This document shows positions 698 to 19,065 of a DNA stretch of 64,000 nt, piece by piece. Within the stretch, counting starts at the first letter, position 1; each line of letters begins with the position of its first letter. A model generated the notes under the pieces. That model ran no database searches and was not told the DNA's origin. It worked only from the letters and a program-made list of their open reading frames with translations. The position numbers and the translations under genes are program-made. Origin of the DNA: an uncultured Methylocystaceae bacterium (lineage in GTDB: Bacteria; Pseudomonadota; Alphaproteobacteria; Rhizobiales; Beijerinckiaceae); contig CAIQCB010000062.1 in NCBI GenBank assembly GCA_903870245.1, positions 1-64,000 on the forward strand, written 5' to 3'.

Positions 698-815
698 ATG
701 GCGGCGCAAAAGTGTACCGTTCCTGAAAGTCCTGCTCCATGTCGCTGATTTGCATGGAGAGGTTGAAGGGATGGTTATAGTGGAACGCTATGCCGTGATT
801 TATAAGGCTCCCTAA
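698..815 (+). mobile_element. possible left-end remnant of an IS21-type element
   Basis: Directly after the IS3 end is a stretch with the phrase ggcggcgcaaaagtgtacc, which resembles terminal repeats seen in IS21-family elements. A short frame at 771-815 then reads MVIVERYAVIYKAP and stops, which resembles the first residues of an IstA transposase. The frame runs into the 3' end of the symporter gene. If correct, an IS21 copy was truncated when other DNA joined here. The match is from memory of family features and is weak. Confidence 0.3.
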
Positions 816-2515
816 AAGAAAACAATATTCAGCGCGGCGGTAAAAAGAATAACCAGAATTGCAATATTCGCCGGCCTAAGGAGCCAATGCTTGGCGCTAT
901 CATCAAGTTCTTGCGCATAACTATATACCAAGCCTTTCAGTTCAATGTCCGGCTTTGCCTTTGTGAATAAACTTACTGCTATCGTTACGGCGAAACAGAC
1001 ACTAAATGCCCAGATAGCTGTCCAGAAATTTTGAGCCATTTCACTTGGGTATGTCTCAATAACGAGACCGAGCCAACCGCCCTTGATTCCCGGCGTTGCC
1101 CGAAATGGTAGAGTAATGCCGTGATGAATGGCCGCAGTTGCGGTCCCCGCGACGAGACCAGAGAAAGCACCATGACCTGTTGCCCGAGCCCAGAACATGC
1201 CAAGCAAGAATGTCGCAAATTGAGGAGCGGTAAAAAACGCGGATACCAACTCCAATTCATCCATAATATTATTGAAGTGCGCGGCAAAATATGCAGCCGC
1301 GATCGCTAAGGGGACTCCACTTATCGTAGCGGCGCGGGCCATCCATAGATAGTGTTTATCATTGGCGTCTTTTCGTATGTAGGCCTGGTAGATATCATAA
1401 GTCCAAACTGTATTAAAGGCCGTGATATTGCCCGCTATTCCAGACATAAAACTCGCCATAAGCGCAGTTAACCCTAGGCCTAAAAGACCATTAGGAAAGT
1501 AGCGCGTGATCATCAATGGCATAGCGAGATCGAAGTTTGAGGAGCCATCCGCCTTCAAGGGGAAAGAAAAGCCATGGTTTGGATCAGCGTCGAGCGCGCT
1601 AGCCACCATACCAGGGACGATCACCAAAAACGGAAACAGCATCTTTGGAACTGCGGCAATAAGCGGTGTGTAGCGCGCGGCGTCCATGGACTCTGCCGCC
1701 ATTGCGCGTTGCACCAAAAGAAAGTCAGTACACCAAAATCCGAAGGACAGTACAAACCCTAACCCCATTACTAGCCCAAACCACTCGACACCCATAGGGT
1801 TCCTTGAGCTATCACCCATGTAGCGCCAGGCTTCATTCCAAGCACCCGGGGCGTAGCCTTGCGCAGTTGCGACTTGTGCTAGACCAATTCGCAGCCCTTC
1901 CCATCCGCCGATGTCAATCAACCCCAGAATTGCTAGCGGCGCGATGCCGAGAACGACGAGAAAGAATTGTAAAACTTCATTATATATGGCTGAGGTAAGT
2001 CCTCCTAGTAATGTGTATAGTAAGGTTATACCTGCACACAAGCAGATCGATAGCGTAAAATCCCAATTAAGTAACAGTTTTAGGAGTATACCCATCGCAT
2101 ACATTGAAGTTCCACACGAAAAAACCGTAATAATTGCGAATGAAATTGCATTAAAACCCCGCGTCTTTTCATCGAAACGAAGCTTTAAATATTCTGGCAC
2201 CGATCTCGCGCGCGATCCGTAGTAAAAGGGCATCATAAATATCGCCAGAAAAATCATTCCCGGCACAGCGCCCACCCAGTAAAAATGACTTGCAGCCATA
2301 CCGTATTTTGCACCGGATGCAGCCATCCCAATAACTTCCTGTGCTCCGATGTTGGCGGATATAAATGCTATGCCCGCTACCCAGGCAGGAATCCTTTTCT
2401 CGGAGAGCAAAAAATCTCCACTTGTGCGCATCTTATGCTTCAGCGCTGCGCCTACGACTAATAAAAATGTGAAATACAGGAAGAAAATCGCCCAGTCTAC
2501 GAATGCCAGCTTCAT
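812..2515 (-). CDS. SGLT-type sodium:solute symporter
   Basis: A 567-residue protein rich in hydrophobic segments (about 14 predicted helices), typical in length for the solute:sodium symporter family. The N-terminal helix is followed by a segment (about residues 33-75) that matches the SGLT helix 1-2 region, with SANIGAQE and YWVGAVPGM. The family couples sodium entry to uptake of sugars, inositols or related solutes across the inner membrane. It is the last gene of the minus-strand arm, 303 bases after the ROK kinase, so it may have its own promoter. With the kinases and glycosidases nearby it probably imports a sugar or cyclitol. The substrate cannot be read from the sequence. Confidence 0.88.
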   Translation of the reverse strand: MKLAFVDWAIFFLYFTFLLVVGAALKHKMRTSGDFLLSEKRIPAWVAGIAFISANIGAQEVIGMAASGAKYGMAASHFYWVGAVPGMIFLAIFMMPFYYGSRARSVPEYLKLRFDEKTRGFNAISFAIITVFSCGTSMYAMGILLKLLLNWDFTLSICLCAGITLLYTLLGGLTSAIYNEVLQFFLVVLGIAPLAILGLIDIGGWEGLRIGLAQVATAQGYAPGAWNEAWRYMGDSSRNPMGVEWFGLVMGLGFVLSFGFWCTDFLLVQRAMAAESMDAARYTPLIAAVPKMLFPFLVIVPGMVASALDADPNHGFSFPLKADGSSNFDLAMPLMITRYFPNGLLGLGLTALMASFMSGIAGNITAFNTVWTYDIYQAYIRKDANDKHYLWMARAATISGVPLAIAAAYFAAHFNNIMDELELVSAFFTAPQFATFLLGMFWARATGHGAFSGLVAGTATAAIHHGITLPFRATPGIKGGWLGLVIETYPSEMAQNFWTAIWAFSVCFAVTIAVSLFTKAKPDIELKGLVYSYAQELDDSAKHWLLRPANIAILVILFTAALNIVFF

Positions 2516-2818
2516 ACGGATCTAGCTCGATTAAGTTACGTATTGCACACAACATCAGAAACATATCTAAAGTTGCCTATTTAGAATAGGCTTGGCACCC
2601 GTCGTGCGCCAAGCTGGTGGGAATTCATGCGTAAGCTCAACCTGGGAAAAACCGTCCAAAGTGACGACGAGATCCTGACGCGCTGCGTGCGGCCACTGCT
2701 AGACGAGGCTTCTGCAAACCCTTCTAATCTTCTCTGACGGCCTCTAACTCCCTCTGATTTCGCAGAACCAGTTGCCACGGCCCGCTTGCTCATGCCGACA
2801 ATGACGGTGTCACGGAAC
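2516..2818. other. intergenic stretch between symporter and ROK kinase genes
   Basis: No convincing gene. A 36-codon plus-strand frame at 2627-2737 and an 87-codon minus-strand frame overlapping the ROK gene are both open, but neither has a recognisable product. The part next to the symporter start is AT-richer and is the likely place for its promoter. No hairpin with a T-run was found. Confidence 0.4.
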
Positions 2819-3763
2819 TCAACGGGACGCTCTAGCGCGGGCAAGGTCGGCGGCGCCGATGAGGCCGGCGTCGAGACCCAGGCCGGCTGCTACGATGCGA
2901 GCCTCTCCCCGCATGCCGCGCGCGGGAAGATGGGATAGAAAGGACTCTCGCGCCGCGTCAATCAACAGGCTTTCGGCGACGGACAGTCCGCCGGCGATGA
3001 CGAAACAACCGGGGTCCAGCACTGCGGCGATCGCGGCCATGCCGCGGCCCAGCCACCAAGCCGTCTCGCGCATCAGCCCCACGGCGACCGTGTCCCCCTC
3101 GGCGGCAGCGGCAGTGACAACGCCGCCAGTGATGGCCTCAATGCGTCCGCCTGCCCGCCGTAACAGGCTGTCGGCGGCGCCCTGCTGCGCCAATTTGCGC
3201 GCTTCGTTTTCGAGCGCCGTTCCCGAGCAATACATCTCCCAGCAGCCGTCGCCGCCGCAACTGCATCTCAGTCCGCCCGGTACAAGCGGCAAATGCCCAC
3301 ATTCGGCGGCCGTGCCGAAGCTTCCCCTGTAAATCGAGCCGCCAATGATGATCCCGCAGCCAACTCCAGTGCCGACCGTCAGGACGACGAGAAACGCCTC
3401 TCCGCTCCCTGCCCCAAATCGCGACTCCGCCCATGCCGCCGCATTGGCGTCGTTTTCTATCACCACCGGTAGCCCGAGACGGCTTTCCATCGTCCGCCGG
3501 ATCGGTTCGCTGCGCCAGCCGATGTTTTTTGCGAAGAGAACAGTCTCCCGTTCGGCGTCGATGAAACCGCCAACGCCAAGGCCAACCGCCGCAACCGGAT
3601 AGTCCTCACACAGCCCTTCGATGAGGACCGCGACAGCTTCTGCGACCTCCGCCGTTCGCGCGGGGGTGGGTCGCTGGAGCCGGGCGAGAACGCGCCCAGC
3701 GTCATCGACGACTCCCGCCGCGATCTTCGTGCCCCCGATGTCCACGCCAACCGTCAGTTTCAT
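2819..3763 (-). CDS. ROK-family sugar kinase (glucokinase-like)
   Basis: A 314-residue ROK kinase. The phosphate-binding DIGGTK lies at residues 8-13, the catalytic ENDANAAAWAE segment near 105, and the ROK zinc site is visible as ECGHLPL followed by CSCGGDGCWE near 155-173. All four usual zinc ligands (His, three Cys) are present, so it should be active. ROK kinases phosphorylate glucose, N-acetyl amino sugars, allose or, in some natural-product pathways, cyclitols. The gene follows the DUF2264 gene by 38 bases and is probably co-transcribed with it. The exact substrate is unknown. Confidence 0.9.
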   Translation of the reverse strand: MKLTVGVDIGGTKIAAGVVDDAGRVLARLQRPTPARTAEVAEAVAVLIEGLCEDYPVAAVGLGVGGFIDAERETVLFAKNIGWRSEPIRRTMESRLGLPVVIENDANAAAWAESRFGAGSGEAFLVVLTVGTGVGCGIIIGGSIYRGSFGTAAECGHLPLVPGGLRCSCGGDGCWEMYCSGTALENEARKLAQQGAADSLLRRAGGRIEAITGGVVTAAAAEGDTVAVGLMRETAWWLGRGMAAIAAVLDPGCFVIAGGLSVAESLLIDAARESFLSHLPARGMRGEARIVAAGLGLDAGLIGAADLARARASR

Positions 3764-3801
3764 GAGATGCTCGAAACGCTAGAGATTGCGGCGTCGCGCG
3801 T

Positions 3802-5070
3802 TCAGAATTTGCGCTTCCAGTCATCCCGGGGGATCGCGCGCAGATCTGCGACCGGGCGATCGGCCCAGTAGCCCTCTTCGCGAAGCGCGCCATGGAATTT
3901 CAACGCGTAGTCAGGGTGCATGTTGCCTCCCCCTTCACCCCACAGTCTTTGCGCGGAAAACGCCACGGCGTCATCGCTCCAAAAGGGATCATGCGCCGGC
4001 AGACCGAGCGGCAGAAACGCCAGTGACGCCATATAAAGACTGCCGGTAGATATGTATTCCTCCGCGAGTTGCGGCTGGCGGCTGCACAGACCGATCGTCA
4101 ACCAGCCCTCCGCGTCGAAAGACGCGTCGCCTAGCGTCCTGTCGATCACCGCAGACAGCGCCGTGCGGACCTGTGCCGGCGGCAGCTCCGACGGCAGGCG
4201 CCCCAGCCTCGCCTCGTTCGCGAGATGATGGAAGGCTCCGCAGCGATAGACGATCGATCGTCCCAGCGCCGGAAAGCTACCGTCCATCGCGATCAGGCGC
4301 TCCAGAACGCAGGCATATCTCTGCGCGATCTTTTCGAAACGCGACTGCATGTCTGCGTATTCCGCGTGCCGGATGGCGACTGCGGCCAGCACGGCGCGCA
4401 GAAAGGGATGAATGGAAAAACTGTTGTAATAGTCCCAGCGAAACTCCGGACCGTCTCCGTAGATGCCGTCCCCCTTGTACCAGAGATCGTGCTGCCGTAG
4501 CGCATAGTCGATGCGCATCCTGTCGTAGCGCTCGCCGACGATCATGAGAAAGGTTTCGATGAGCGCGCTGTACAGCAGCCAGTTATAATATCCGGGCTTG
4601 ATCGCACGGGTGCTCTTCAGCGCCGCGATGATATGCCTGCGCGTGTCCGGCTCCGCGTTGAACCACAGGGACGGGCCCCTCATCAAGGCGATCGCCAGAT
4701 GAGCGGCGTCGACGAGCGGCTGATCACCGTCGCAGAAATTCATGAAATCCCGCGCTCCGGGATCGACGGCGTTGGCGAGCGCGCGCCGGGCTAGAACCTC
4801 CATCTGCTCTCTCTCACGCTCCTCTTCCGGGTGATCCGCCGTAGTCTCCAGCCAGGGCGAGAGCCCGGACAGAAGGCGGGCGAACGCCTCGAGATGGGTG
4901 TAAGCGCGCCGATCAGCCGCGATTTGCGACGTCTTAGCTTCGACGGGCATGACGGATTTCAACCTGTCGTTGGCGAGCGCCGTGAGCGGAGGTTTCGTCA
5001 TCTTGATCAGCAGTGAGACCCAATACGCGCGACTTTCCCTGTTTCTGGCGCGCGACAGTAGACTGGACAT
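3802..5070 (-). CDS. DUF2264 domain protein
   Basis: About 420 residues with the DUF2264 signature over most of the length (for example FMNFCDGDQPLVDAA, YNWLLYSALIETF, FRWDYYNSFSIHPFL). DUF2264 proteins are related to alpha/alpha-barrel glycoside-processing enzymes and usually sit beside sugar catabolic genes; no reaction is firmly established. An in-frame ATG 36 bases further upstream (5106) exists, but the ATG at 5070 is preceded by GGAG at a suitable distance, so the shorter start was chosen. It sits between the HAD and ROK genes in the minus-strand operon. Confidence 0.8.
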   Translation of the reverse strand: MSSLLSRARNRESRAYWVSLLIKMTKPPLTALANDRLKSVMPVEAKTSQIAADRRAYTHLEAFARLLSGLSPWLETTADHPEEEREREQMEVLARRALANAVDPGARDFMNFCDGDQPLVDAAHLAIALMRGPSLWFNAEPDTRRHIIAALKSTRAIKPGYYNWLLYSALIETFLMIVGERYDRMRIDYALRQHDLWYKGDGIYGDGPEFRWDYYNSFSIHPFLRAVLAAVAIRHAEYADMQSRFEKIAQRYACVLERLIAMDGSFPALGRSIVYRCGAFHHLANEARLGRLPSELPPAQVRTALSAVIDRTLGDASFDAEGWLTIGLCSRQPQLAEEYISTGSLYMASLAFLPLGLPAHDPFWSDDAVAFSAQRLWGEGGGNMHPDYALKFHGALREEGYWADRPVADLRAIPRDDWKRKF

Positions 5071-5123
5071 GGCAGGAGGCTCTCCGTGTTTTCTGGCAGG
5101 GTCCATGGCGCCGCGGGAAGGCG

Positions 5124-5876
5124 TCAGCCCAGTATTTCGAGTAGCTGCGCGAGCGACTCGATCCGCCAGTCCGGCGAGACGGCGTCGTCTCTTCGCGACT
5201 GTCCTTCCCGGTCAATGTGGACGACTTTCAACCCTGCGCCGCGCGCGCCGACAACGTCATGCTCCAAACTGTCGCCAACATAGATGGCGTCGCTAGCGGG
5301 AATGCTCAGAGCATCCAGCGCGATCTGGAACAATTTCGGCTCCGGCTTGCTAACCCCGTGGTCGGAAGACATGACCACCACATCCCACCAGCCATCGAGC
5401 CGCAACATTCGCATCTCCGGCTCCGCATAGACTCGATGAGCATTAGACACGAGACCAAGTCGGTAACCGGCCTTCAACCGCTCAAGGGTCGGAAACACAT
5501 CGTCGAATACGCCAAACCGCAGCGTACTGAAAGCGCGGTAACTTTGCAGGAAACACAGCAGCAACCGCTCATCCGCCGCTTCGTCGCCAAGGGTCTTTCG
5601 AAGAACGGTGAGCATATCGATTTCTGGGAAGGGGCGACTTGGAAACGCGGCTTCCTGCTCACGGGCAATCGTCGCAAAGAAGTTCCGTCGAAGGCTTTCC
5701 GGGTCGACGTCGATGTTGTTGTACCCCAGAAAGAAAGCCAGATTCTTCCAGAGATCGGCCGATTCCTCGTCGATCAGCATATCAATCAGCGTTTTGTAGA
5801 GGTCGAACAAAATGAGGCGCGGTTTCATCTTCCTCGGCGTCACTGTTTGGGGGCGGCGGTAGGACCGTTTCGACAA
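5124..5876 (-). CDS. HAD-superfamily hydrolase with a DxY nucleophile motif
   Basis: A HAD subfamily IA protein. The nucleophile motif is FDLYKTL (Asp at residue 25 from this start), motif II is VSNAH, motif III Lys is in SKPEPKLF, and motif IV is YVGDSLEHDVVGA. The second Asp of the usual DxD is Tyr, as in dehalogenase-type and some uncharacterised HADs, so classical phosphatase activity is not certain. The start at 5876 has GAGG four bases upstream; the in-frame ATG at 5828 begins closer to the conserved domain and also has GAGG nearby, so either is possible. It lies 32 bases after the IMPase gene and 53 before the DUF2264 start. Confidence 0.82.
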   Translation of the reverse strand: MSKRSYRRPQTVTPRKMKPRLILFDLYKTLIDMLIDEESADLWKNLAFFLGYNNIDVDPESLRRNFFATIAREQEAAFPSRPFPEIDMLTVLRKTLGDEAADERLLLCFLQSYRAFSTLRFGVFDDVFPTLERLKAGYRLGLVSNAHRVYAEPEMRMLRLDGWWDVVVMSSDHGVSKPEPKLFQIALDALSIPASDAIYVGDSLEHDVVGARGAGLKVVHIDREGQSRRDDAVSPDWRIESLAQLLEILG

Positions 5877-5908
5877 GTCTCGCCTCGGGAGCAGCGGCTA
5901 GGTTCTGG

Positions 5909-6748
5909 TCAAGCGGGTCTATCCACCGCGACGCCGCCCGTACGATCCCTAAACGGGAGATCGGCGGCATGGGGCAAGAAAGCTTCATACATTTGTCGAT
6001 GCAGGGCTGGACAGGCAGCGACGACATCTCCAGTCTTTAAATAGGAATGTCCGCCCGCGAAATCGGTGACGACGCCGCCGGCCTCCTCAATGAGCACAAC
6101 GCCGGCGGCGATGTCCCACGGTTTCAGGCCGATCTCCCAGAAACCGTCTATGCGTCCGCATGCGACCCAGGCCATGTCCAACGCCGCCGCACCGCCCCTT
6201 CTGATCCCGGTGCCGCGTCGGGTGGCAGCGCGCAGCATGTCGAAATAGGCCCCGCAAACGTTTCGATCAATAAGCGGAAAGCCGGTTCCGAGCATGGCGC
6301 TCGGAAAATCCGTCTGCTCCGCGACGCGCAATACGCGGCCGTTCATCGTAGCCCCACCTCCACGCGCCGCCGTGAACAGCTCCTGACGGGCAGGATCATA
6401 GATCACGCCGCAGACGACTTCTCCGCTCTGAACGAGCGCGATCGAAACGGCGAAATGCGGTATCCCGCGTAGGAAATTGGTCGTCCCGTCGAGAGGATCG
6501 ATGATCCAGACGTATTCGTTTTCGACTTCACCCTGCTGTCCGCCCTCTTCACCAAGGAATCCATGCGACGGATACGCTTCCTTAAGAACGGCGATCACCG
6601 CCTGCTCGGCCCGGCAGTCGACTTCGCTGACGAAATCGTTAAAGGCCTTGGTCGTGACGGAAAGCGTGTCTCTCTCATCGAAATAGTGCATTATTATTTT
6701 ACCGGCGGCGTGCGCAGCCTGGGTTGCAACCACGAGTGTAGAGTCCAT
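5909..6748 (-). CDS. inositol monophosphatase family protein
   Basis: A 279-residue metal-dependent phosphatase of the IMPase/SuhB family. The full metal set is visible: Glu in GFLGEEGG (about residue 67), the two Asp of DPLDGTTN (84 and 87), and Asp in KPWDIAAG near 213. The family removes phosphate from myo-inositol 1-phosphate, related cyclitol phosphates, fructose bisphosphate or histidinol phosphate. GGGGA stands nine bases ahead of the start. It is one of two IMPase-type genes in the cluster and is more canonical than the one at 11768. Its place among kinases and a glycosyltransferase suggests a sugar or cyclitol phosphate substrate. Confidence 0.9.
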   Translation of the reverse strand: MDSTLVVATQAAHAAGKIIMHYFDERDTLSVTTKAFNDFVSEVDCRAEQAVIAVLKEAYPSHGFLGEEGGQQGEVENEYVWIIDPLDGTTNFLRGIPHFAVSIALVQSGEVVCGVIYDPARQELFTAARGGGATMNGRVLRVAEQTDFPSAMLGTGFPLIDRNVCGAYFDMLRAATRRGTGIRRGGAAALDMAWVACGRIDGFWEIGLKPWDIAAGVVLIEEAGGVVTDFAGGHSYLKTGDVVAACPALHRQMYEAFLPHAADLPFRDRTGGVAVDRPA

Positions 6749-6763
6749 CTCTAAAGTTCCCCA

Positions 6764-7636
6764 TTAAAGATAAAGTACGCCATTTTGCACACTGCCGGCG
6801 AGGCGCCCCCAGCGCATCGCCGCACGGTAAAGCCATGCGGCCCTGCGAACCTTTTCGCCGAACAACCAGGGCGAATGGGTCACGATCCAGCCCCATTCCA
6901 GACATGCCGCTGCGAGATCCGAGCGCGGCATGCCGGCCGCTTCGAAGGCCGCGTAAAGTTTCGGATGTGAACGCCCGTAGCTGTAGGCCTGATGCACGAC
7001 GCCGGACAGGTCAGACCTCAGACGGTAATGAATGACGGCGTCCTTTGCAAAGCCGAGAGTCGCTCCCCCGAGCTGCGCCCGCCAGAAAAACTCAACGTCG
7101 GTCGATCCATAACGATATGTCTCGTCGAAGAACCCCGCGTCGCGCCAGACCTTCTTGTGCATACCCGCGTTTGCGAACGGCGTGTAGAGCAGGAAGCCGA
7201 AACTGTCGAGCAAGCCATCGGCGCTCTTCGGCGGCCGCGCCGCTAGGGCGACCTCATCGTTCAACGTCCTTCTTTCGAGGCTCCCGCCCACCATGTCATG
7301 AGAGGCGAGCGCACGCGCCATAGACGTCACCCAATTCGAGTTGGCCACGTCGTCGGCGTCACAGAAGAGCAGAAGATCGCCGCGGCTCTCTCGAGCGCCC
7401 ATGTTTCTGGCGGCGTTGGCGCCCCGCAGAGAAGAGGCGTCCACAAGCCGCAAATGCGGCAGTCGGGGCGTCCAGGAATCGACGATGTCTCTCGTGCCGT
7501 CTCTCGATCCGTTGTCGGCGACGAGGATCTCCCAGTCTCCTTCGAAAGACTGGCGGCTGAGCGCCTCAAGTTGAGAGCCGATCGTCGCGGCGCTGTCGAG
7601 TGCAGGCATGATCACTGAGACGAAACACGATGTCAT
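6764..7636 (-). CDS. family 2 glycosyltransferase
   Basis: A 290-residue GT-A fold enzyme. VSVIMPALDSAATI opens the nucleotide-binding fold, ADNGSRDGT follows near 40-48, and CDADD near 92 is the metal-binding DxD equivalent. There is no membrane segment apart from mild hydrophobicity, so it is likely cytosolic or peripheral. It would transfer a sugar from a nucleotide donor; no donor-synthesising gene is in the cluster. It starts 14 bases after the PfkB gene and ends 15 bases before the IMPase gene, so it belongs to the same operon. Confidence 0.88.
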   Translation of the reverse strand: MTSCFVSVIMPALDSAATIGSQLEALSRQSFEGDWEILVADNGSRDGTRDIVDSWTPRLPHLRLVDASSLRGANAARNMGARESRGDLLLFCDADDVANSNWVTSMARALASHDMVGGSLERRTLNDEVALAARPPKSADGLLDSFGFLLYTPFANAGMHKKVWRDAGFFDETYRYGSTDVEFFWRAQLGGATLGFAKDAVIHYRLRSDLSGVVHQAYSYGRSHPKLYAAFEAAGMPRSDLAAACLEWGWIVTHSPWLFGEKVRRAAWLYRAAMRWGRLAGSVQNGVLYL

Positions 7637-7650
7637 GTAAACAAATCTTC

Positions 7651-8484
7651 CTAAGCCAGTTCATCAAGACGGAGCTGTCGTGAAAAAGGACCGGCGCCAG
7701 CGATGCACGCGGCGCCGCACCGAGCCGCGAATTCCACGGCGGACGAAATTTCATCGAAGCGCGCCAAGCCAAAAGTGAGCGCAGCCGCAAAACTATCTCC
7801 CGCCCCGTAACAATCGACGGCAGGGCCAGGAAGCGCAGCTGGCGCGTATGGAATCCAAGGGCCGCCGCGAATAGCGTAACGTCCGCCATAAGAGCCGTCG
7901 GTGGCGACCAAAACCGTCGGCGGCGCAGAAAGCATGGATGGATCATACGCCTCGTCTCGATCCCGGGAGCTGCCAACAACCGCGTCCAGGAAAATTTCCG
8001 CAGCGGTGGCGGTCGCCATCTCCCGCGCCGTAACGACAAGCGTCGCTGACGCTCGGGCGCTCCTCAGCACCGTCGCATCGCCGGCCGAAAAATAGATTGC
8101 ATCGTATTCTTCCAAACGATCCCACGGCAAACGATCACAATAAGAGGGCTGCAAACGCGCGCCAAGAGTCGTCGTAGTTCGTTCGCCGCCCGCCTCGATC
8201 AGGGCGAAGGCCTCGCGAGTTGGTGCGTTGCGAATTGCTGCAAGCACGTCGACTCCGTTGCTCTCCAGCGCCGCACGCGCATTACTTCCCGGGAGATCAT
8301 CGCCGAGAGCCGTGAAGAAAGCGCACTTGCTCGCCAATTTAGCTAATTGGACAGCGGCGACAGCGCCGCCGCCAGCAGGTCCCTCCCACGAAACATCCGC
8401 GTGTGCGATATCGCCCGATATCGGAATACGATCGACTCGTGCAATCCGCGTCCACTCGACATGCCCGATGACCGCTACCTTCAT
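7651..8484 (-). CDS. PfkB-family carbohydrate kinase
   Basis: A ribokinase-type fold: GPAGGGAVAAVQLAKL in the N-terminal substrate region and DCYGAGDSFAAALTFG with the catalytic Asp and anion hole near the C-terminus. At about 277 residues from the chosen ATG it has normal length. The frame is open 120 bases further upstream, but those codons lack the family beta-strand; MKVAVIGHVEW at 8484 is the natural start, though its ribosome site is weak. It is the first gene of the tight minus-strand run down to the ROK gene. The substrate is probably a sugar or nucleoside-like alcohol; ribokinase or adenosine kinase roles are not supported specifically. Confidence 0.87.
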   Translation of the reverse strand: MKVAVIGHVEWTRIARVDRIPISGDIAHADVSWEGPAGGGAVAAVQLAKLASKCAFFTALGDDLPGSNARAALESNGVDVLAAIRNAPTREAFALIEAGGERTTTTLGARLQPSYCDRLPWDRLEEYDAIYFSAGDATVLRSARASATLVVTAREMATATAAEIFLDAVVGSSRDRDEAYDPSMLSAPPTVLVATDGSYGGRYAIRGGPWIPYAPAALPGPAVDCYGAGDSFAAALTFGLARFDEISSAVEFAARCGAACIAGAGPFSRQLRLDELA

Positions 8485-8770
8485 TGTGCTAATCCGAGAC
8501 TCTTTTTCATGAGTTTTAACCATTTTTGTGACGTAGTCGCACAACCCATGGTTGAGGGCGCGAAATGTGCGCCCAACGCCTGTTTTTGACAAGCCCTTGC
8601 TCACAGAAGTTTTAGCACTTGGTGATTATGGCGCTTCGCCCGGCGCGGCAAAGCGACAGCGGAACAAATCCTGGTCGCTTCATCGCGTATTTATCATTAA
8701 TCGTGAGAGTGTTGGCTCGATCCGGGCAAAAGAGAATGTGCACCTCAGCGCATTTTTAGCTTTAGCTTGT

Positions 8771-9035: not shown

Positions 9036-9116
9036 GTTTAAATCAATGTTCGATCCGGGCGCGAAAGCAAAAGCTATTGATACATCCCTTAAAAAATTCT
9101 CATAAACCAAACAGCG

Positions 9117-10303: not shown

Positions 10304-10317
10304 CAGATGCAGGCATA

Positions 10318-11771: not shown

Positions 11772-12676
11772 AAGCTCTGATACAGGAGCTTTCTCATCAT
11801 ATCCGCGATGTCATTCGACGCGGGCGCGGTTCTGTGCCTAACCGATATACGAGCGGTATAGCAAAGGGTGGCGACGCGGAATTTCCGGTAGACAGATTGG
11901 CTGAAGACGCAGCCTGGGAGTTCCTGAAAAAGAGAGAGATCTCTGTCGCGGTGTATACCGAGAGCGAGGGACTGAGAGTCATTGGCGACGATCCCCGCTA
12001 TGTCTTCGTCATTGATCCGATCGACGGAACCCGTGGCGCTGCGGCGGATTTCGAGATGGCCTGTGTTTCCATAGCGGTCGCGCGTTTTAGCGAAACGCCC
12101 ACCATCGGAGACATTGAATTCGCCATCCTGCAAGAAATTAAAACCGGAAACTGGATTTACGCTGACGAGTCAACAAGTGGGATTGAGAGCGCGGGATACG
12201 AAGGCGGATTGCCGCAACTCGGAACCACGACCAGCCTCGAGCGCATGTTTTGGACACTGGAGTTCAACGGGCATCCCGCAAGCCTGATGATTCAGAGCTA
12301 CGGCCATCTGATCGACGCATCAGCTAACCGCGGCGGAGTCTATGTCGTCAACAGCGCCTCGTTCTCGATCTCGCGCATCATTACCGGGCAGATGGACGCC
12401 TATGTCGATATCGGCAATCGGCTGTTGCGCGATCATCCCGAGACGGAAGTCGACTTCCGCAGAGTGGGCCACGGAAACATACTGCATCTGTTCCCATATG
12501 ATATCGCCGCAAGCGTCTATCTGGCTGAACGCGCCGGGGTCATCATTACGGATGCATATGGCGCTTCCCTGCGGAGCACGCTCCTTTTGGATATCAGCCC
12601 TATGAATCAGCGCTCTTGCGTGGCGGCTTGCACAGCGGAATTGCACAAGGGACTGCTCGACTCCATCCGCTGGTGA
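11768..12676 (+). CDS. divergent inositol monophosphatase-like phosphatase
   Basis: A 302-residue protein of the IMPase superfamily. The metal ligands remain: Glu in the TESEG segment, the two Asp of IDPIDGTRG, and Asp in PYDIAAS near the end. The usual TTN after DGT is replaced by RGA, and spacing differs from SuhB, so it represents a distinct subgroup (CysQ-like and cyclitol-phosphate enzymes are alternatives). The ATG overlaps the stop of the aminotransferase (ATGA), pointing to coupled translation. With the neighbouring APH-like kinase it could form a phosphorylation/dephosphorylation pair in the same pathway. Confidence 0.85.
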   Translation: MKALIQELSHHIRDVIRRGRGSVPNRYTSGIAKGGDAEFPVDRLAEDAAWEFLKKREISVAVYTESEGLRVIGDDPRYVFVIDPIDGTRGAAADFEMACVSIAVARFSETPTIGDIEFAILQEIKTGNWIYADESTSGIESAGYEGGLPQLGTTTSLERMFWTLEFNGHPASLMIQSYGHLIDASANRGGVYVVNSASFSISRIITGQMDAYVDIGNRLLRDHPETEVDFRRVGHGNILHLFPYDIAASVYLAERAGVIITDAYGASLRSTLLLDISPMNQRSCVAACTAELHKGLLDSIRW

Positions 12677-12683
12677 TTGCAGG

Positions 12684-13898
12684 ATGAATAAAAAGTCTTG
12701 GCGGGAAGACCTTTTCGCGGGTTCCGAACTCGAAGTTTTGGAGTTAGTCTGCGAACGGCTAAAATTTGAGGTCATCGAAGAAATTCTCGAAGGCGGCTCT
12801 GCGGCGCGGGTTTGGCTCGCCAACGACAGCGCCGGCGATCGCTTCGCCGTGAAGATTGTGGTTGCGACGCCTGGCGTCGTCGACGGGCACGACATCGACT
12901 CTTTCAGGCTGAAGGTCACCCAGATCGATAGCATCCGGACGAAGGCGCCCAAACTGGGAGAGACCTATCTACCAATTTTGTATAATGTCGAAGGCGAGAA
13001 CTGGGCCTGCCAGATTACGCCCTATTTCGAGTCGACCGATCAGGCGGCGCCGCTGAGGCAGCCGGGCGGAGAGGATGTATTTTTTCGTAATTATGCGCGT
13101 TTCGTCGATGATTTGCTGGTGAAGGGTTACGGGGTTGAGACCGCAGCCCCACCGCCCGATTATTTGGAGCGGATCGTCATCGGCCGGTTCTTGCGCCGCA
13201 TCCCCATGCTCGAGAGCGCTTTCCCTGAAGCGCTCGCGGCGGACAACATGGTCATAAACGGACATTTCTGCATCGCGCCCAAGATATTGCTTCCACATCT
13301 GCTGCGCCAGACGGCGCATCCCGATATGTCGCCGGTGCGGCTCGGGCTTTGCGCTCATGGCGACGCCAACACGCGAAACGTTCTGTGCGGGATTGAAACG
13401 GAATTTCGCCTCATCGATCCTCGTGGTTCTACGGAGTTTTGGGATCCGGTTTACGATCTGGCGAAGTCACTTTTTTGTCTCACAGTGTGGGATCCAGCCC
13501 TGCGTCTCGGATTCAACATTTGTAGTTCCGCTCGCGGAGAGACGCCAGACTACGCCGTAAGTTTCCAGCGACCGCTGTATGCCGGATACAAGAGGGCGAT
13601 CGAAGAGTTTTTGCCCTTCCTCGCGCAACAGGCTGGGGTGCAGGAAATGATGCAGGGCGATGCGTGCTGGAAGAGCCGTCTCTTGCTCACGCATGATCTA
13701 CATGTGCTCGCCGAGGCTCCCTGCCGGCTTTCCGATCGCAAGCCGAAATTCGGAGCGGATGGCGCCTTGTCCACTCCCGAAGATCTGGCCCTCGGATTTT
13801 ATCTGCTGGGCACGCTTTTCATCAACGAGCTGGCGCGGCAGCTTGAGAGCGGCGATGAACTCGACGCGGTACGTCACCTGTCGTTTATCGGGCTTTAG
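12684..13898 (+). CDS. APH-fold phosphotransferase (small-molecule kinase)
   Basis: A 404-residue kinase-like protein. The N-lobe shows a glycine-rich turn and Lys57 in FAVKIVV, the catalytic loop is HGDANTRN (His225, Asp227, Asn232), and the metal-binding DPRG has Asp245. This is the aminoglycoside/choline/homoserine kinase fold. The N-terminal extension and large C-terminal helical part are longer than in resistance enzymes. The gene begins seven bases after the IMPase gene. In this setting it may phosphorylate a cyclitol, amino sugar or the end product (self-protection), but none of these can be read directly. Confidence 0.82.
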   Translation: MNKKSWREDLFAGSELEVLELVCERLKFEVIEEILEGGSAARVWLANDSAGDRFAVKIVVATPGVVDGHDIDSFRLKVTQIDSIRTKAPKLGETYLPILYNVEGENWACQITPYFESTDQAAPLRQPGGEDVFFRNYARFVDDLLVKGYGVETAAPPPDYLERIVIGRFLRRIPMLESAFPEALAADNMVINGHFCIAPKILLPHLLRQTAHPDMSPVRLGLCAHGDANTRNVLCGIETEFRLIDPRGSTEFWDPVYDLAKSLFCLTVWDPALRLGFNICSSARGETPDYAVSFQRPLYAGYKRAIEEFLPFLAQQAGVQEMMQGDACWKSRLLLTHDLHVLAEAPCRLSDRKPKFGADGALSTPEDLALGFYLLGTLFINELARQLESGDELDAVRHLSFIGL

Positions 13899-13992
13899 CG
13901 CCGGAGCGCATCTGGGAGGCGATATTTTGTCTGCAATGACGCGGCGGCGAACTTCAGTCTTTCCGGCTGCTATCTGAAGGATCTATCAGGCC

Positions 13993-15819
13993 ATGTGTGG
14001 AATCGCAGGCGTCGTTCTTCGTAATTCGACAGTCGATCGCACGACGCTTGAGACCATGCTTGACCAGCTGCGGCACCGCGGCCCGGACGGGTCTGGGATT
14101 TTTGTGCACGAAGGATTTGGGCTCGGCCATACGCGCTTGTCAATCAACGATCTCGAGGGAGGACAACAGCCGCTTCTCTGTCCAGAAAAGAACCTCGCCG
14201 CTGTCGTCAACGGCGAGATCTATAATTTTGTCGAGCTTCGCGCGGAAATGGAGGCGGCCGGCGTCAGCTTCGCGACACGATCCGACAGCGCCTGCGCCCT
14301 TCACGCCTACGCCCTGAATCCGGAGAACTTCGTTCAGCGACTGAACGGAATGTTCGCGCTGGCGATCCTTGACGGGCGACGCAAGGTCCTAACTCTGGCG
14401 CGCGACCGCCTCGGCGTCAAACCGCTCTATTACGCGCTGTTACACGACAAGTTCATTTTCGCCTCGGAGATAAAGGCGATCCTGCCTTTGTTATCCGGAC
14501 AGCCCGTGCTCGAGGCGGAAGCCCTCTCCCAGTTCCTGCACAGCCATTGCACGACCGGAACGGAGACGGTGTTTCGCGGGATCAGGCGCCTTGCTCCGGG
14601 CGAGATCATCACAATTGACGCGAATCTGAACATGACGTCGCGTCGCTACTGGAGCGCGCTGGATGTCGCCGGAAGGCGAACGCGAAGCGTCGCGGCGCTG
14701 GAGGAGGAGTTCGAAGACCTCTTTCGTCAGGTCATGCGGGAACATATGAGGTCCGACGTTCCGTTCGGACTCTTCCTGTCGGGCGGCAACGACTCGGCAA
14801 TTCTGCTCGCGATGTTGTCGCTTTATCAGGACAGGCCGGTTAGAACCTTCTCGATCGGCTTCGACGACTGCGCCTTCGAGGATGAACTGGGCGACGCCGA
14901 GAGCGTTGCCGCGGACTTTTCCAGCGACCACACCTCGATCCGGATGAACCGGGCGGACTTCTTCGGGAGAATCCCCTATTCAATCTGGGCGTGTGACGAT
15001 CTGATGCGGGACAATGCAAGCCTGCCAACGTCGTTTCTCTCTGAGGCGGCGCATCGCGAGTTGAAGGTTGTCTTCTGCGGCGAAGGCGGCGACGAGGTCT
15101 TTGGCGGCTATCCGCGTTATTGGGGCAGCAAATTGGGCTGGCTCGTCGAGTCACTCCGCGCGCCCGGCTCCGGAGGGTTCCGGACGCGCAGCGACTGGTC
15201 GGCGGAAACGTCCGCCCTGTTGCTCGGCGAGAGGCTGACGCGAGAGGGCGCTTCCTTTCGAAAGCCCCATGTCTCCGCCTGGAAGGCGACGCCGCGCGGC
15301 TGGAGTGATCTGCAACGCCGCCAATATACCGATATCGTGACCGATCTTACCGACAGTCTGCTGGTCAAGGCGGATCGCATGACCATGAGTTTCGGAATCG
15401 AGGCGCGAGTGCCCTTCCTCGATCACAGGGTCGTGGAGTTTGGCCTTTCGCTGCCCGATTCCTTAAAGATCGTGAACGGAGAGCCAAAGATATTTCTGCG
15501 GCGCTGGGCGGAGCGGCATCTGCCGAAGGAGCTGCTTTACCGGCCGAAGAAGGGATTTTCAGTCCCGGTACGCGAGTGGCTGCGCGGCGACTGGCTCGAC
15601 CGGCTCGAAAAGCGGCTGATGGAAAATACGGCGGTGGGCGAATGGTTCGACGTCTCAGCTTTCCCGCGCGTCTTCAATGCGCAGAGGAGGGATGGCCGGG
15701 CGACGCGAGAGATCTTCGGGATCATGCAGTTCGCCATATGGCACCGACTCTTCGTCGAGACGCCAGGCGTCAGGCCGGGCGCCAACGAGGATCCGCTGGA
15801 CTGGATAAGCGGCAAGTGA
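13993..15819 (+). CDS. glutamine-hydrolysing asparagine synthetase family protein
   Basis: A 608-residue AsnB-type enzyme with both halves intact. Cys2 of the class II glutaminase is in MCGIAGV, RHRGPDG and NGEIYN follow, and the synthetase half has the ATP-pyrophosphatase loop SGGNDS near 260 and EGGDEVFGGYPRYW near 360. It would transfer ammonia from glutamine to an activated carboxylate. Housekeeping asparagine synthesis is possible, but the position inside the operon suggests amidation of a pathway intermediate, as for AsnB paralogues in polysaccharide and antibiotic clusters. A 94-base gap separates it from the kinase gene. Confidence 0.9.
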   Translation: MCGIAGVVLRNSTVDRTTLETMLDQLRHRGPDGSGIFVHEGFGLGHTRLSINDLEGGQQPLLCPEKNLAAVVNGEIYNFVELRAEMEAAGVSFATRSDSACALHAYALNPENFVQRLNGMFALAILDGRRKVLTLARDRLGVKPLYYALLHDKFIFASEIKAILPLLSGQPVLEAEALSQFLHSHCTTGTETVFRGIRRLAPGEIITIDANLNMTSRRYWSALDVAGRRTRSVAALEEEFEDLFRQVMREHMRSDVPFGLFLSGGNDSAILLAMLSLYQDRPVRTFSIGFDDCAFEDELGDAESVAADFSSDHTSIRMNRADFFGRIPYSIWACDDLMRDNASLPTSFLSEAAHRELKVVFCGEGGDEVFGGYPRYWGSKLGWLVESLRAPGSGGFRTRSDWSAETSALLLGERLTREGASFRKPHVSAWKATPRGWSDLQRRQYTDIVTDLTDSLLVKADRMTMSFGIEARVPFLDHRVVEFGLSLPDSLKIVNGEPKIFLRRWAERHLPKELLYRPKKGFSVPVREWLRGDWLDRLEKRLMENTAVGEWFDVSAFPRVFNAQRRDGRATREIFGIMQFAIWHRLFVETPGVRPGANEDPLDWISGK

Positions 15820-15871
15820 ACGCAAGGAACTGACGGCGACTTTCTACGAGGACGCGAGTTCGACAAGAGGA

Positions 15872-16954
15872 ATGCAGATGTCTGTCAAAAACGAGGACTT
15901 GCCGCAATCCATCACAACAATGCCGGCCCTGATCTACTCTGGCCCGTCGAAGAGCCTGCAGCTGGCGCGTCGCCCTGTCCCGCGTCTGGTGCGCGACTCT
16001 GACGTGCTGGTGCGCGTGGTCGCGACGGGGATCTGCGGCACGGACCGAGGCATCGTAATGGGAACGTTTCCGGCGGTAGACGGCGTGATCCTTGGACATG
16101 AGGCGGTCGGGATCGTTGAGGAGGTCGGAAAGAGCGTCTCGTCGCTCCAAACCGGCGACAGAGTTGTGATCAATCCAACCTACGCCTGCGGTGAATGTCG
16201 CCAGTGCCGGCGCGATGCGGCAGCCTATTGTTCTGGAAAGGAGGGGCGCGAAGTCGGCGTCGACTGCGACGGCGCTATGGCAGGGTTCATCCTTTTGCCG
16301 GAGACGTCGATCCTCCGCATTCCGGATGAGATGAGTTTCCGGCGCGCGACACAGATCGAGCCTTTGGCCTGCGTCCTTAACAATCTTTCTGCGATAGCCC
16401 CGCGGCACGGGGATCGCATCTTCGTCTTCGGCGCAGGTCCGATCGGGACGCTCTGCGCCTATGTTCTGGCGACGCGGGGATTTCACGTCCATATCGTCGA
16501 AAAGGACGAGCGCCGCGCTGACATCGCGCGAGACGCCTTGGACGCCTTGACGCCGTCGCATGTCGCGGTGTCGATCGCCCCGCCCAATGGCGAACGGCCG
16601 GATGTGATCATCGACTCGGTCGGATGGCTTTTGGAGGAGGCGCTCGGCCTGATCGGTGAGGGCGGTACGGTGCTCATCATGGGTGAACGCGAAGGAGTTG
16701 AGGCGCGTGTCCCACTGCGGCCGCTCGTCACGCGCGGCGTGCGCATCGTCGGCGCCGGCCCCTATTCGCCGCAGGATTTCGAACTGGCGGCGCAACTCGC
16801 GCAGGATCTGCCGCTGGAGCGGTTCATCACCGATGAAGCGCCGCTGGAGCGTTTCGTCGACGCATTCGGGATGCTGGCGGCCGGGCCGGAATCGACGGGC
16901 GGCTATCGGGCGCTGAAGGTCCTGCTCGTCTCCGACGAACGCAGTCTTTCATGA
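15872..16954 (+). CDS. zinc-dependent medium-chain alcohol dehydrogenase
   Basis: A 360-residue MDR enzyme. Catalytic zinc ligands are Cys55 (GICGTD), His76-Glu77 (GHE) and Glu in IEPLACVLN; the structural zinc site is Cys106, Cys109, Cys112 and Cys120. The NAD-binding loop is VFGAGPIGT near 190. It resembles sorbitol, threonine and scyllo-inosamine dehydrogenases, so a polyol or cyclitol oxidation that feeds the aminotransferase is plausible. ATGs at residues 1 and 3 compete; AGAGGA is better spaced for the second (15878). The stop overlaps the glycosidase start by four bases. Confidence 0.88.
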   Translation: MQMSVKNEDLPQSITTMPALIYSGPSKSLQLARRPVPRLVRDSDVLVRVVATGICGTDRGIVMGTFPAVDGVILGHEAVGIVEEVGKSVSSLQTGDRVVINPTYACGECRQCRRDAAAYCSGKEGREVGVDCDGAMAGFILLPETSILRIPDEMSFRRATQIEPLACVLNNLSAIAPRHGDRIFVFGAGPIGTLCAYVLATRGFHVHIVEKDERRADIARDALDALTPSHVAVSIAPPNGERPDVIIDSVGWLLEEALGLIGEGGTVLIMGEREGVEARVPLRPLVTRGVRIVGAGPYSPQDFELAAQLAQDLPLERFITDEAPLERFVDAFGMLAAGPESTGGYRALKVLLVSDERSLS

Positions 16955-19065
16955 GGCCGCAGGTCAGAGACGGAGTTCTCCAGCTGAAGGGCGCAGCGCG
17001 GCTACTTCTGGCGGGCGACTATCCCTATTACCGGGATCCTCCCGAGCTGTGGGCTCCGAAGTTGCGCATGATGCGTGCGGCGGGGCTTGAGGTCGTCAGC
17101 TTCTATGTCCCGTGGCGTCATCATGAGGTCGCATTCGACGGCTGCGAGAGCAAGCTTGTTTTCTATAACGACGGTAATAGGGACTTGGTCGGATTTATCG
17201 GCGCAATTCAAGCTGCGGGTCTGTATGCATTGCCCAAGCCCGGTCCGTTCGTCCATGCGGAATTGCCGTTCGGCGGCCTGCCAGATCGGCTGAGTCCAAG
17301 CTCCAATCCGCTATTGCAGGCCGCGATGTCGGCGCATGGCGCGCCGCTGGCCTATGAGCGCTATCAGCTGCCGTCGATGCACGATCCGGCATTTCTGGCG
17401 CAGACGGCCGATTGGCTCGCGTCGGTCGGTGATGTCCTGCGTCCATGGCTCTGTCCGCAAGGCCCCGTCGTGGCGGTACAGATCGGCAATGAAGGCTGCT
17501 ATGGAGAGATGGCGCGTGGCTTGAACCGTCTGGATTACTCGGCCTGCGGCCTCGCCGCATTCGACGCGGCCTTCCCAGGACAGGAGGCGCCGCGCAGCGG
17601 CGGATTGCCCGGCGTGTCGGCCGATCCGGGCGCCTATCTGCGCTGGGGGCTCTGGTCCGGGCGCGCGACCATGGCCGCGCTGGAGTGGATGGCGGGCCGC
17701 CTAGCGCTGGATGTGCCGGTCTTCACTAACAACGCGCCGCCGAAACCGGAGCAGGATGGCGAGTGTCGACACCATGACTCATGGCTGGCGCGCAGCGCTG
17801 CCGGGTCGACGCGCTTGCACTATGGCTACACGAGCTGGGTCGGCAACGTCGTCGCCGATGACCGGGCGCTTGTCGATTATGTTCTCGCCGCAGCGTTGAG
17901 GCGCGGGCCGAACCTTGAGGAAAACTGGTCCCTGTCATGGGCCGAGGCCGATTGCGCCTTCGCCTGCCGGCCCGTGTATCAGGCGCTGCTCGGCCTGGCC
18001 TTCGGCGCGACGGGGCTCAACGTCTACACGGCCTGCGCCACGACAGCATGGGGCGCGCATCTGTCGATCCGCGCGGAAGATCTGGACGATCCGGCGCGCG
18101 CGCGGTTTCTCGATCCACCCTATGGCGACATCGCGCCAATCGGCCCGGCGGCTGAGGCGGGTCCCGGCTTTCGGGCGCTTTGCGTGTTGACGCATTTTCT
18201 CTCGTTCGTCGGCGCGTCGCTCGTAGGATCGGAAGAGGAGCCGGGATTGGCGTTTTGGCTTTATCCGCCCTATGGCGCTATCGCAGCCTGGGGCGCGCCC
18301 GCGGACGGCGAGGCGACGGCGCCCTCCTCAAGTGCGTATCTGACGCCTTTCGCCCTGCATTGCCTCATGAGCAACATTCCGTTTTGTCTCATTGAGGACG
18401 ATCCGTCGGCAGATCGGCCGATCGTGGCGGCTTCGGGGGCTTTCATGACTGAACGGCGCCAGCGCGTCCTGGCAAACCACATAGAAGATGGCGGCGCCCT
18501 GCTCCTGATCGGCCAACAGCCGGAGATGGACGAAGAATTCAAATCTTGTCGGGTTCTTAGAAACGCGATCGCCAGTCTGGCGCCGTCTGTCAGGTCCAGC
18601 GGACGCGTTCGCGTCTTGACCGCCGGGGTGTCGGAAATCGGTGCAGCCGTCGATGACTGGCTGCGCTGCCTGCCGGAGGTCCGGCGTTCCCCTGCGCGGG
18701 CCGGCTGGATGGAAATCCATCGTCGGGCGCCGGCGGAAAACGGTCGCTTCGTTTTCTTTTTCAATCGCACCGACTCTGTCGCAAAGGTTGAGAGCGAGAT
18801 CGGCAGCGAGGCGCTTACGCTCGATCTGGCTCCCTATGGGTGCGCCATCGTTCATGTTGTCGCTGACGAACTGGCGGGTTTTTATTCGAAGGGCCTGAAT
18901 GAAAAGTTTGGTTCGGGCGTGGCGCCCCGCGTTAGGTTCGGTAGAAGCGAACTCATCGCGGACGAGCCCTGCGACGTTTCGGTGATCAGAAGGGGACGGG
19001 ATTTCATCTTCGAGACCAACGGGAGCGATAAGCCTCTGCGAATGACCCTAGTCCATCGTCTGTGA
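16951..19065 (+). CDS. GH35-like beta-galactosidase family glycosidase
   Basis: A 704-residue protein with a TIM-barrel N-terminal half like GH35/GH42 enzymes. KPGPFVHAELPFGGLP matches the GH35 substrate-site loop, VAVQIGNEGCYG contains the likely acid/base Glu181, and NLEENW near 321-326 has the candidate nucleophile. The C-terminal half (about 400-704) contains a glutamine-amidotransferase-like domain typical of GH42 and then beta-sandwich sequence. No signal peptide is visible, so it acts in the cytosol. It is last in the arm and translationally coupled to the dehydrogenase. The product could be a pathway hydrolase or a salvage enzyme for imported glycoside. Confidence 0.78.
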   Translation: MRPQVRDGVLQLKGAARLLLAGDYPYYRDPPELWAPKLRMMRAAGLEVVSFYVPWRHHEVAFDGCESKLVFYNDGNRDLVGFIGAIQAAGLYALPKPGPFVHAELPFGGLPDRLSPSSNPLLQAAMSAHGAPLAYERYQLPSMHDPAFLAQTADWLASVGDVLRPWLCPQGPVVAVQIGNEGCYGEMARGLNRLDYSACGLAAFDAAFPGQEAPRSGGLPGVSADPGAYLRWGLWSGRATMAALEWMAGRLALDVPVFTNNAPPKPEQDGECRHHDSWLARSAAGSTRLHYGYTSWVGNVVADDRALVDYVLAAALRRGPNLEENWSLSWAEADCAFACRPVYQALLGLAFGATGLNVYTACATTAWGAHLSIRAEDLDDPARARFLDPPYGDIAPIGPAAEAGPGFRALCVLTHFLSFVGASLVGSEEEPGLAFWLYPPYGAIAAWGAPADGEATAPSSSAYLTPFALHCLMSNIPFCLIEDDPSADRPIVAASGAFMTERRQRVLANHIEDGGALLLIGQQPEMDEEFKSCRVLRNAIASLAPSVRSSGRVRVLTAGVSEIGAAVDDWLRCLPEVRRSPARAGWMEIHRRAPAENGRFVFFFNRTDSVAKVESEIGSEALTLDLAPYGCAIVHVVADELAGFYSKGLNEKFGSGVAPRVRFGRSELIADEPCDVSVIRRGRDFIFETNGSDKPLRMTLVHRL

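Follow-up and report, generated by a model that had tools for sequence, protein, structure and literature searches.

A sixteen-gene cluster with a probable azasugar-type core in an uncultured Methylocystaceae bacterium and its relatives in other phyla

Azasugars (iminosugars) are glycosidase inhibitors with drug derivatives, and their reported hallmark in bacteria is an aminotransferase, a phosphatase and a dehydrogenase encoded in one cluster, with PF00202, PF13419 or PF00459, and PF00107, PF08240 and PF16912 as the signature families (PMC8382821). According to the same source, the steps of bacterial 1-deoxynojirimycin (DNJ) formation that follow ring closure have no assigned genes, the C2 epimerase and the C1 reductase having been neither identified nor found clustered in producers; not every route would need an epimerase, since Streptomyces lavendulae may bypass mannojirimycin (PMC6713920). 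In addition, 41 Streptomyces genomes have been described in which a 'disordered' gabT1-yktC1-gutB1 set is interleaved with APH-type, ROK, intradiol dioxygenase and sugar-nucleotide/NAD(P)-binding proteins, other azasugars being suggested for these clusters with no product named (PMC8466323). The present work deals with a 64,000-nucleotide stretch of DNA from an uncultured Methylocystaceae bacterium (assembly GCA_903870245.1, contig CAIQCB010000062.1, positions 1 to 64,000), hereafter the window, in which a cluster of 16 genes lies between 812 and 21578. Judged from its sequence, this cluster would encode azasugar-type chemistry, a reading to which we give a probability of about 0.82, and the evidence suggests that it was horizontally acquired, with extra tailoring genes.

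Gene content and the three-gene core

In the window, PF00202, PF00459 and the pair PF08240 and PF00107 occur within 6.5 kb, PF16912 scoring below its cut-off. The corresponding genes encode a class III aminotransferase, the second of two IMPase-type phosphatases (IMP2), whose gene overlaps the end of the aminotransferase gene by 4 bases, and a zinc dehydrogenase. The original prediction had placed an oxidation-transamination pair at the core, and this was upheld, both enzymes belonging to the three-gene azasugar signature. It had listed 14 open reading frames (ORFs), all of which were recovered, eight running leftward (812-9989) and six rightward (10461-19065) from a divergent gap of 471 bp; Pfam and NCBIfam bore out its family names for 13 of the 14, whereas the APH-fold protein at 12684-13898 matched no model of either. 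Its cluster end at 19065 was too short, since two SDR genes beyond it also sit in the Phormidium cluster described below, and the unit thus runs to 21578. The 16 genes are the following.

812-2515, minus strand: SSF sodium/solute symporter, candidate transporter (PF00474)
2819-3763, minus strand: ROK kinase, glucokinase-like (PF00480; TIGR00744 glucokinase above cut-off)
3802-5106, minus strand: DUF2264 / former GH154 protein, kin of beta-D-glucuronate dehydratases (PF10022)
5124-5876, minus strand: HAD phosphatase (PF00702/PF13419)
5909-6748, minus strand: IMPase-type phosphatase 1, IMP1 (PF00459)
6764-7636, minus strand: GT2 glycosyltransferase (PF00535)
7651-8604, minus strand: PfkB-type kinase (PF00294)
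9117-9989, minus strand: RmlD-like reductase (PF04321)
10461-11771, plus strand: class III aminotransferase, GabT1 role, signature gene 1 (PF00202)
11768-12676, plus strand: IMPase-type phosphatase 2, IMP2, YktC1 role, signature gene 2 (PF00459)
12684-13898, plus strand: APH/MTR-kinase-like protein (motifs, predicted model)
13993-15819, plus strand: AsnB-type glutamine-dependent amidotransferase (PF00733 and PF13537)
15872-16954, plus strand: zinc dehydrogenase, GutB1 role, signature gene 3 (PF08240/PF00107)
16951-19065, plus strand: GH35/GlmA-like glycosidase (PF01301 and PF22369)
20136-20861, plus strand: SDR a, beyond the previously given cluster end (PF00106)
20883-21578, plus strand: SDR b (PF00106; 49% identical to SDR a)

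The true start of the PfkB gene probably lies downstream of the listed GTG, where the alignments begin. The sugar-nucleotide-binding domain IPR029903, to which the comparison below returns, we take to be of the RmlD type.

The best match of the aminotransferase in the plasmid collection is a Paenibacillus polymyxa protein (46.7% identity), whose operon runs in the order aminotransferase, gutB1 (annotated 2-amino-2-deoxy-D-mannitol dehydrogenase) and HAD phosphatase. The zinc dehydrogenase is 35% identical to this GutB1 over 357 positions; dehydrogenases of known producers outside Bacillus show about 32% to B. velezensis GutB1 (PMC8382821, Table 1). In S. lavendulae CCM 3239, which belongs to a species with a DNJ-making strain (PMC6713920), the whole set was found, with identities to the window of 58% for the aminotransferase, 55% for IMP2 and 44% for the dehydrogenase, and in Phormidium the aminotransferase and IMP2 reach 80% and 82%. 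The aminotransferase therefore lies above the identity of about 40% used for the GabT1 network, as gauged against P. polymyxa and S. lavendulae rather than Bacillus GabT1. In an alignment of 84 aminotransferases its segment GAAFRRKPF is of the azasugar type, while the group of a validamycin-type Streptomyces hygroscopicus locus (L038) reads NGTTKMRAPF or similar. In the corresponding tree, the window and Phormidium proteins pair (100/99) inside a six-member clade (100/99).

The original prediction had also remarked that a cyclase was missing, and this holds: the Pfam/NCBIfam scan found no sugar-phosphate cyclase among the cluster ORFs, and the genome has a single match to the dehydroquinate synthase (DHQ synthase, DHQS) family, on another contig, which is presumably AroB. 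Such an absence is expected of an azasugar route, since there the amine attacks the new aldehyde spontaneously. Moreover, an imported sugar or inositol, previously proposed as starting point, is not required, as the known azasugar pathways begin at fructose 6-phosphate or another ketose phosphate.

Co-occurrence in other phyla, accessory proteins and transfer

The check earlier proposed, a search for conserved gene co-occurrence, was carried out by scanning a genome collection with an alignment of aminotransferase fragments, the best 80 of 148 relatives being kept; the 14 window proteins, and in a second round the SDRs as well, were then looked for in these 80 aminotransferase loci and six others (n = 86). 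(A single-protein scan of genome contigs with the APH protein gave no match.) A 19,852-bp contig of Phormidium sp. FACHB-1136, thus of another phylum, carries 14 of the 16 cluster genes at 52-82% identity, reordered as HAD, aminotransferase, IMP2, APH, RmlD, GH35, dehydrogenase, SDR b, SDR a, PfkB, GT2, IMP1, AsnB and DUF2264. Beyond the core, the identities are 71% for DUF2264, 70% for GT2, 65% for AsnB, 64% for SDR b, 62% for SDR a, 61% for the RmlD-like protein, 60% for IMP1, and 59% for both HAD and PfkB. This contig lacks just the symporter and the ROK kinase, and it has a PF02685 glucokinase between the SDR a and PfkB genes. Of 33 control ORFs from 22373-63642 of the window, none matched the Phormidium, Kitasatospora, S. 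sioyaensis or Actinoplanes stretches at E 1e-5; these ORFs had been picked by length (at least 150 aa), and not all are proven genes. The same procedure missed HAD, which is covered by the comparison of the cluster genes. With 14 of 16 genes shared with Phormidium against 0 of 33 control ORFs, the earlier claim that the genes belong together is borne out, and the cluster is one unit, very probably a biosynthetic one.

Smaller parts of the set recur in actinomycetes. Kitasatospora sp. A2-31 holds nine of the 16 genes (aminotransferase, IMP2, APH, dehydrogenase, GH35, GT2, PfkB, RmlD and a ROK kinase at 41%), S. sioyaensis eight (ROK at just 34%) and Actinoplanes regularis eight (the GH35 match being partial, and no RmlD being found within 36 kb), while a 3.2-kb piece of a Frankiaceae metagenome-assembled genome (MAG) carries an aminotransferase-IMP2-APH block. 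In the three actinomycetes, GT2 is 51-55% and PfkB 49-55% identical, and the RmlD-like protein 52-55% in Kitasatospora and S. sioyaensis; ROK relatives stand at 41-42% in L021 and L023 and at 34% in L022. Relatives of the APH protein (44-61%) occur in five related loci, and those of IMP1 (37-41%) in 7 further aminotransferase loci.

A frequent companion of IMP2 is the GH35-like gene: among the 80 aminotransferase loci this gene was found in 7 of the 17 that bear IMP2 and in none of the 63 without it (Fisher p 6e-6, uncorrected for relatedness and with some loci cut short). The six-member clade accounts for three of the seven, and the other four (L025, L033, L040 and L063, from unrelated actinobacterial, Propionibacteriaceae, Archangium and Tissierellales MAGs) are plain aminotransferase-IMP2-dehydrogenase-GH35 runs with GH35 identities of 26-36%, the L040 match covering part of its length; in three of the four runs an MFS match lies close by. 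One type of azasugar cluster may have the GH35-like gene as a general fourth member. The GH35-like protein aligns to GH35 enzymes of the PDB over the N-terminal third and a later domain only, these kin including an exo-beta-D-glucosaminidase and a beta-1,2-glucosyltransferase. Two carboxylates, E181 (in GNEG) and E323, the latter assigned by eye, do not vary in an alignment of six sequences that includes the window protein, which makes an active glycosidase probable; no evident signal peptide was seen, as judged by eye.

As regards the APH-like protein, no match was obtained in Pfam, NCBIfam or the PDB sequences. HGDxNxRN and IDPRG, which we take to be the catalytic motifs of APH-type kinases, are invariant in seven aligned sequences, window included. 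An AlphaFold model built from six sequences (pLDDT 83) gave Foldseek matches that include 5-methylthioribose kinase and APH(3')-IIIa (2pyw, 2bkk, 1j7l and 3i0o; modest TM-scores, 0.33-0.54), the best 50 rows being mostly protein kinases with plant SYMRK first. The protein is a candidate kinase for self-protection or for a carrier phosphate. The DUF2264 protein, in turn, has its best PDB matches in two beta-D-glucuronate dehydratases, 9o4u (E about 1e-91) and 9nwf (about 1e-90), followed by 8oi4, titled beta-galactosidase (4e-84); for the former GH154 family, a uronate dehydratase activity of the BcGDH type has been described (PMC12269599). Together with AsnB, whose best plasmid matches are at about 37%, this kinship suggests a uronic acid or uronamide unit.

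Acquisition is suggested by the distribution of the aminotransferase. A search of 38 further genomes of the genus, 29 with a completeness of 90% or more and a contamination of 5% or less, gave nothing at E 1e-60, and one of a phylum sample, with 397 further genomes, gave nothing at 1e-100. The APH protein had no match at 0.001 in 148 other genomes of the family and one distant match on a plasmid, from S. mirabilis (32%), where 29 kb of sequence showed none of the other cluster genes. IMP2 matched 41 others among 385 genomes of the class at E 0.001, none of them strongly (best E 1.8e-9, 31% identity), and nothing in the plasmid collection. The cluster nevertheless agrees with its host in tetranucleotide make-up (correlation 0.96), which gives no sign that it came in recently from a very dissimilar genome. 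Mobility is suggested by the ends of the Phormidium contig, one of which has an integrase gene and the other a weak transposase match.

Window position 1 is base 1 of its contig, and the left end of the cluster may therefore be cut. Two further features bear on its boundaries and history.

100-654, plus strand: integrase-core transposase ORF (PF13683/PF00665) at the contig start, a boundary outside the pathway
8820-8990, minus strand: degenerate transposase-like remnant between the PfkB and RmlD genes, as read in its frames

We take the former to be IS3-type. The latter, one 27-aa piece of which had no Pfam match, resembles the end of an IS630-type DDE enzyme, and is a sign of past rearrangement inside the cluster. 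Between 8600 and 10480, promoter-like sites numbered 2 (1.7 expected) and terminator-like sites 5 (2.5 expected); repeats in 1-24000 were limited to short imperfect pairs, and the DNA of the two long gaps had no match in the plasmid collection. To the right of the cluster, at 24885-30579 and beyond, lie a TPP enzyme, an M48 peptidase and a sulfatase, then housekeeping genes (gyrase A, SufBD protein), with no match to any of these in the four related stretches. For a B12-dependent ribonucleotide reductase gene, the identity to Sinorhizobium DNA is 78% over 3.3 kb, in keeping with an alphaproteobacterial host.

Some further loci of the survey may be mentioned in their own right. Myxococcus L083, L085 and L086, a possible further azasugar cluster type, have an aminotransferase and a dehydrogenase beside an RmlD-like protein (33-35%) and a distant APH relative (26%). 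L074, L080-L082, L088, L089 and L091 (Micromonospora, Actinoplanes, Arthrobacter and MAGs) combine an azasugar-type aminotransferase with an IMP1-like IMPase (37-41%) and show no IMP2 match. DUF1349 genes lie near an azasugar-type aminotransferase/dehydrogenase pair on Paenibacillus, Streptomyces and Erwinia plasmids (L014, L016 and L019), and the betaproteobacterial Noviherbaspirillum loci L050 and L059 hold a validamycin-side aminotransferase with RmlD-like matches (27%).

Proposed pathway and rival explanations

Substrate, ring, step order and every tailoring role are what we infer from the protein families. The aminotransferase would aminate a ketose phosphate (fructose 6-phosphate in known cases), IMP2 would then take off the phosphate, and the zinc dehydrogenase would oxidise the freed hydroxyl, so that the amine could close on the new carbonyl, no cyclase being involved, to give a mannojirimycin/nojirimycin-type ring. 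More speculatively, the RmlD-like protein, a candidate azasugar reductase or epimerase, and the SDR pair might carry out the C1 reduction and any epimerisation; GT2 might glycosylate the azasugar, possibly with uronic acid; AsnB might amidate a carboxylate and the DUF2264 protein dehydrate the uronyl unit; and the GH35-like enzyme might trim the glycoside, or be a tolerant or activating glycosidase. The three kinases (APH-fold, PfkB and ROK) and the HAD and IMP1 phosphatases would add and remove phosphates, for precursor supply or for keeping the product inactive in the cell, and the symporter would be a local transporter. Taken jointly, the genes would encode every step towards glycosylated, phosphate-protected azasugars of a new class, with a uronamide or unsaturated uronyl group; the RmlD-like protein and the SDR pair would provide the C2 epimerase and the C1 reductase with their first candidates from within a cluster, and the block would have moved between an alphaproteobacterium, a cyanobacterium and actinomycetes; such a far-reaching version is tentative and, as a whole, rather doubtful.

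Several points weigh against an azasugar-type assignment. The published aminotransferase consensus, SGNXFRXXXFPNXXXXXXXLXVPXPYCXRC (PMC8382821), is not matched exactly by the window protein, which reads AGAAFRRKPF...LHVPDPDCRRC and retains FR, F and L.VP.P.C.RC with AGA in place of SGN; S. lavendulae and other signature loci also depart from it (SGE...). Two genes, APH and AsnB, separate the phosphatase from the dehydrogenase, which, as the fourth ORF after the aminotransferase, falls outside the scan of three ORFs to either side used in PMC8382821 and inside the 10-kb clustering limit of PMC8466323. IMP2 was compared with S. lavendulae and Phormidium rather than directly with Bacillus YktC1, and the comparison proteins of the signature clusters are known by annotation. 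Moreover, S. lavendulae CCM 3239 itself is not known to make DNJ, the authors who studied the producing strain did not succeed in cloning its genes (PMC6713920), and the six-member clade has no known product. The ROK matches of the actinomycetes are at an ordinary family level (34-42%), and the symporter, ROK, DUF2264 and GH35-like families would also fit glycan catabolism. In Nonomuraea gerenzanensis (L015), a GH35 relative (35% over 76%) has no aminotransferase or IMP2 match, and the family is thus not confined to azasugar-type clusters; this locus, which also shows ROK and SDR matches (28-31%) nearby, is a possible clue to an older role of the GH35-like family. Finally, the Phormidium contig is nearer to the window in tetranucleotide make-up (correlation 0.51) than other sampled contigs are (0.14-0.27), and could be misbinned. 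A contaminant is disfavoured by its fit to five other stretches of its own genome (0.73-0.82, compared with 0.51 to the window).

A validamycin-type aminocyclitol or pseudo-oligosaccharide pathway, with a ValM-like aminotransferase, a ValN-like dehydrogenase and a cyclitol supplied from elsewhere or as imported inositol, is the nearest rival. Locus L038, which we take to be validamycin-type and which is named from its gene content, has an aminotransferase 53% identical to that of the window, and its ROK, RmlD-like, GT2 and dehydrogenase genes give weak matches (26-30%), so that the kinship with pseudo-oligosaccharide pathways put forward by the original prediction is real. Nevertheless, the ten ORFs scanned there also include a DHQS-type cyclase and a GT20, the latter with no counterpart among the window cluster genes (the search covered cluster genes only), the dehydrogenase match is 28% over just 64%, and no IMP2 match was found within L038. 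In the 40% network, ValM and the azasugar aminotransferases share one cluster (PMC8382821), and it is therefore the segment, the phosphatase and the missing cyclase that decide. The L038 segment reads NGTTKMRAPF, whereas that of the window is not of the RAPF type; the segment and the signature favour an azasugar over the aminocyclitol product that had been emphasised, and a validamycin-type pathway is unlikely.

Still less probable is a cluster for the breakdown of an imported glycoside or uronic-acid glycan, in which the symporter would import, the GH35-like and DUF2264 proteins degrade, the ROK and PfkB kinases phosphorylate sugars, and the aminotransferase and dehydrogenase process an aminopolyol. 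SSF, the ROK glucokinase, DUF2264 and GH35-like proteins are typical catabolic families, and a 49% DUF2264 relative in Hymenobacter adjoins GH88, GH43 and beta-galactosidase genes. Set against this, no GH88 or GH105 match occurs among the 16 cluster ORFs, the symporter is peculiar to the window locus (0 of 86 loci matched), and the three-gene core of seven Streptomyces/Kitasatospora loci (L024, L026-L031) is accompanied by no SSF, DUF2264 or GH35 match; GT2, kept in all four related neighbourhoods (51-70%), and AsnB, kept in Phormidium, are both biosynthetic families. Least probable of all, and very much so, is a cell-surface or exopolysaccharide aminosugar locus with the azasugar-like core making a glycan building block: GT2, RmlD-like and AsnB proteins occur in such loci, one of which (L018) has an AsnB relative, but this is just 37% identical, and the 16 genes hold no flippase, polymerase, nucleotidyltransferase or polysaccharide export family.

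Comparison with known systems

The azasugar-type cluster proposed here resembles the galactosyrin gsn cluster of Pseudomonas syringae in that an oxidase of the zinc-dehydrogenase family leads to iminosugar ring closure and a phosphatase is present; the gsn cluster, unlike the window, has no aminotransferase, and a RibD-like reductase acts on a purine-pathway amine (PMC11844564). With the gabT1-yktC1-gutB1 cluster of Bacillus, Paenibacillus, Chitinophaga and Streptomyces (PMC8382821) the window shares the same three families (aminotransferase 47-58%, dehydrogenase 35-44%), but it has two interleaved genes, an imperfect aminotransferase consensus and 13 further genes, among them candidates for a reductase or epimerase. 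As in the 'disordered' Streptomyces clusters (PMC8466323), APH-type and RmlD-type proteins stand between or beside the core genes; the S. sioyaensis and Kitasatospora loci look like this kind, beside which they are set by description only. The original prediction knew of no described cluster with this exact set. For the fuller set this stands in the literature searched, whereas clusters with APH, ROK and sugar-nucleotide-binding proteins had already been reported in Streptomyces.

Among the papers listed in the literature searches, as far as titles, abstract openings and passages go, no description was found of the fuller set, of the GH35 linkage or of a cyanobacterial or alphaproteobacterial member, and no paper on a kifunensine cluster was found, as judged by title. 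The main text of PMC8382821 contains neither 'cyanobacteri' nor 'proteobacteri', and that of PMC8466323 mentions no PfkB or galactosidase and names a glycosyltransferase for another compound only; for a Synechococcus, glucosidase inhibition has been reported, but no YktC1 or GutB1 homologues were found there (PMC8402191). What is new, then, is that the set is fuller, with GT2, PfkB, AsnB and DUF2264, that it is spread over three phyla, and that in the 80 aminotransferase loci a GH35-like gene is never seen unless IMP2 is present. Azasugar-type chemistry is thereby pointed to in a cyanobacterium and an alphaproteobacterium, and a compact set of reductases, kinases, a glycosyltransferase and a glycosidase beside the core, partly conserved in three phyla, provides named candidates for the post-ring steps and for self-protection. 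Compared with the 'disordered' clusters, the window and Phormidium add GT2, PfkB, AsnB, DUF2264, IMP1, HAD and the SDR pair, and they do so outside Streptomyces.

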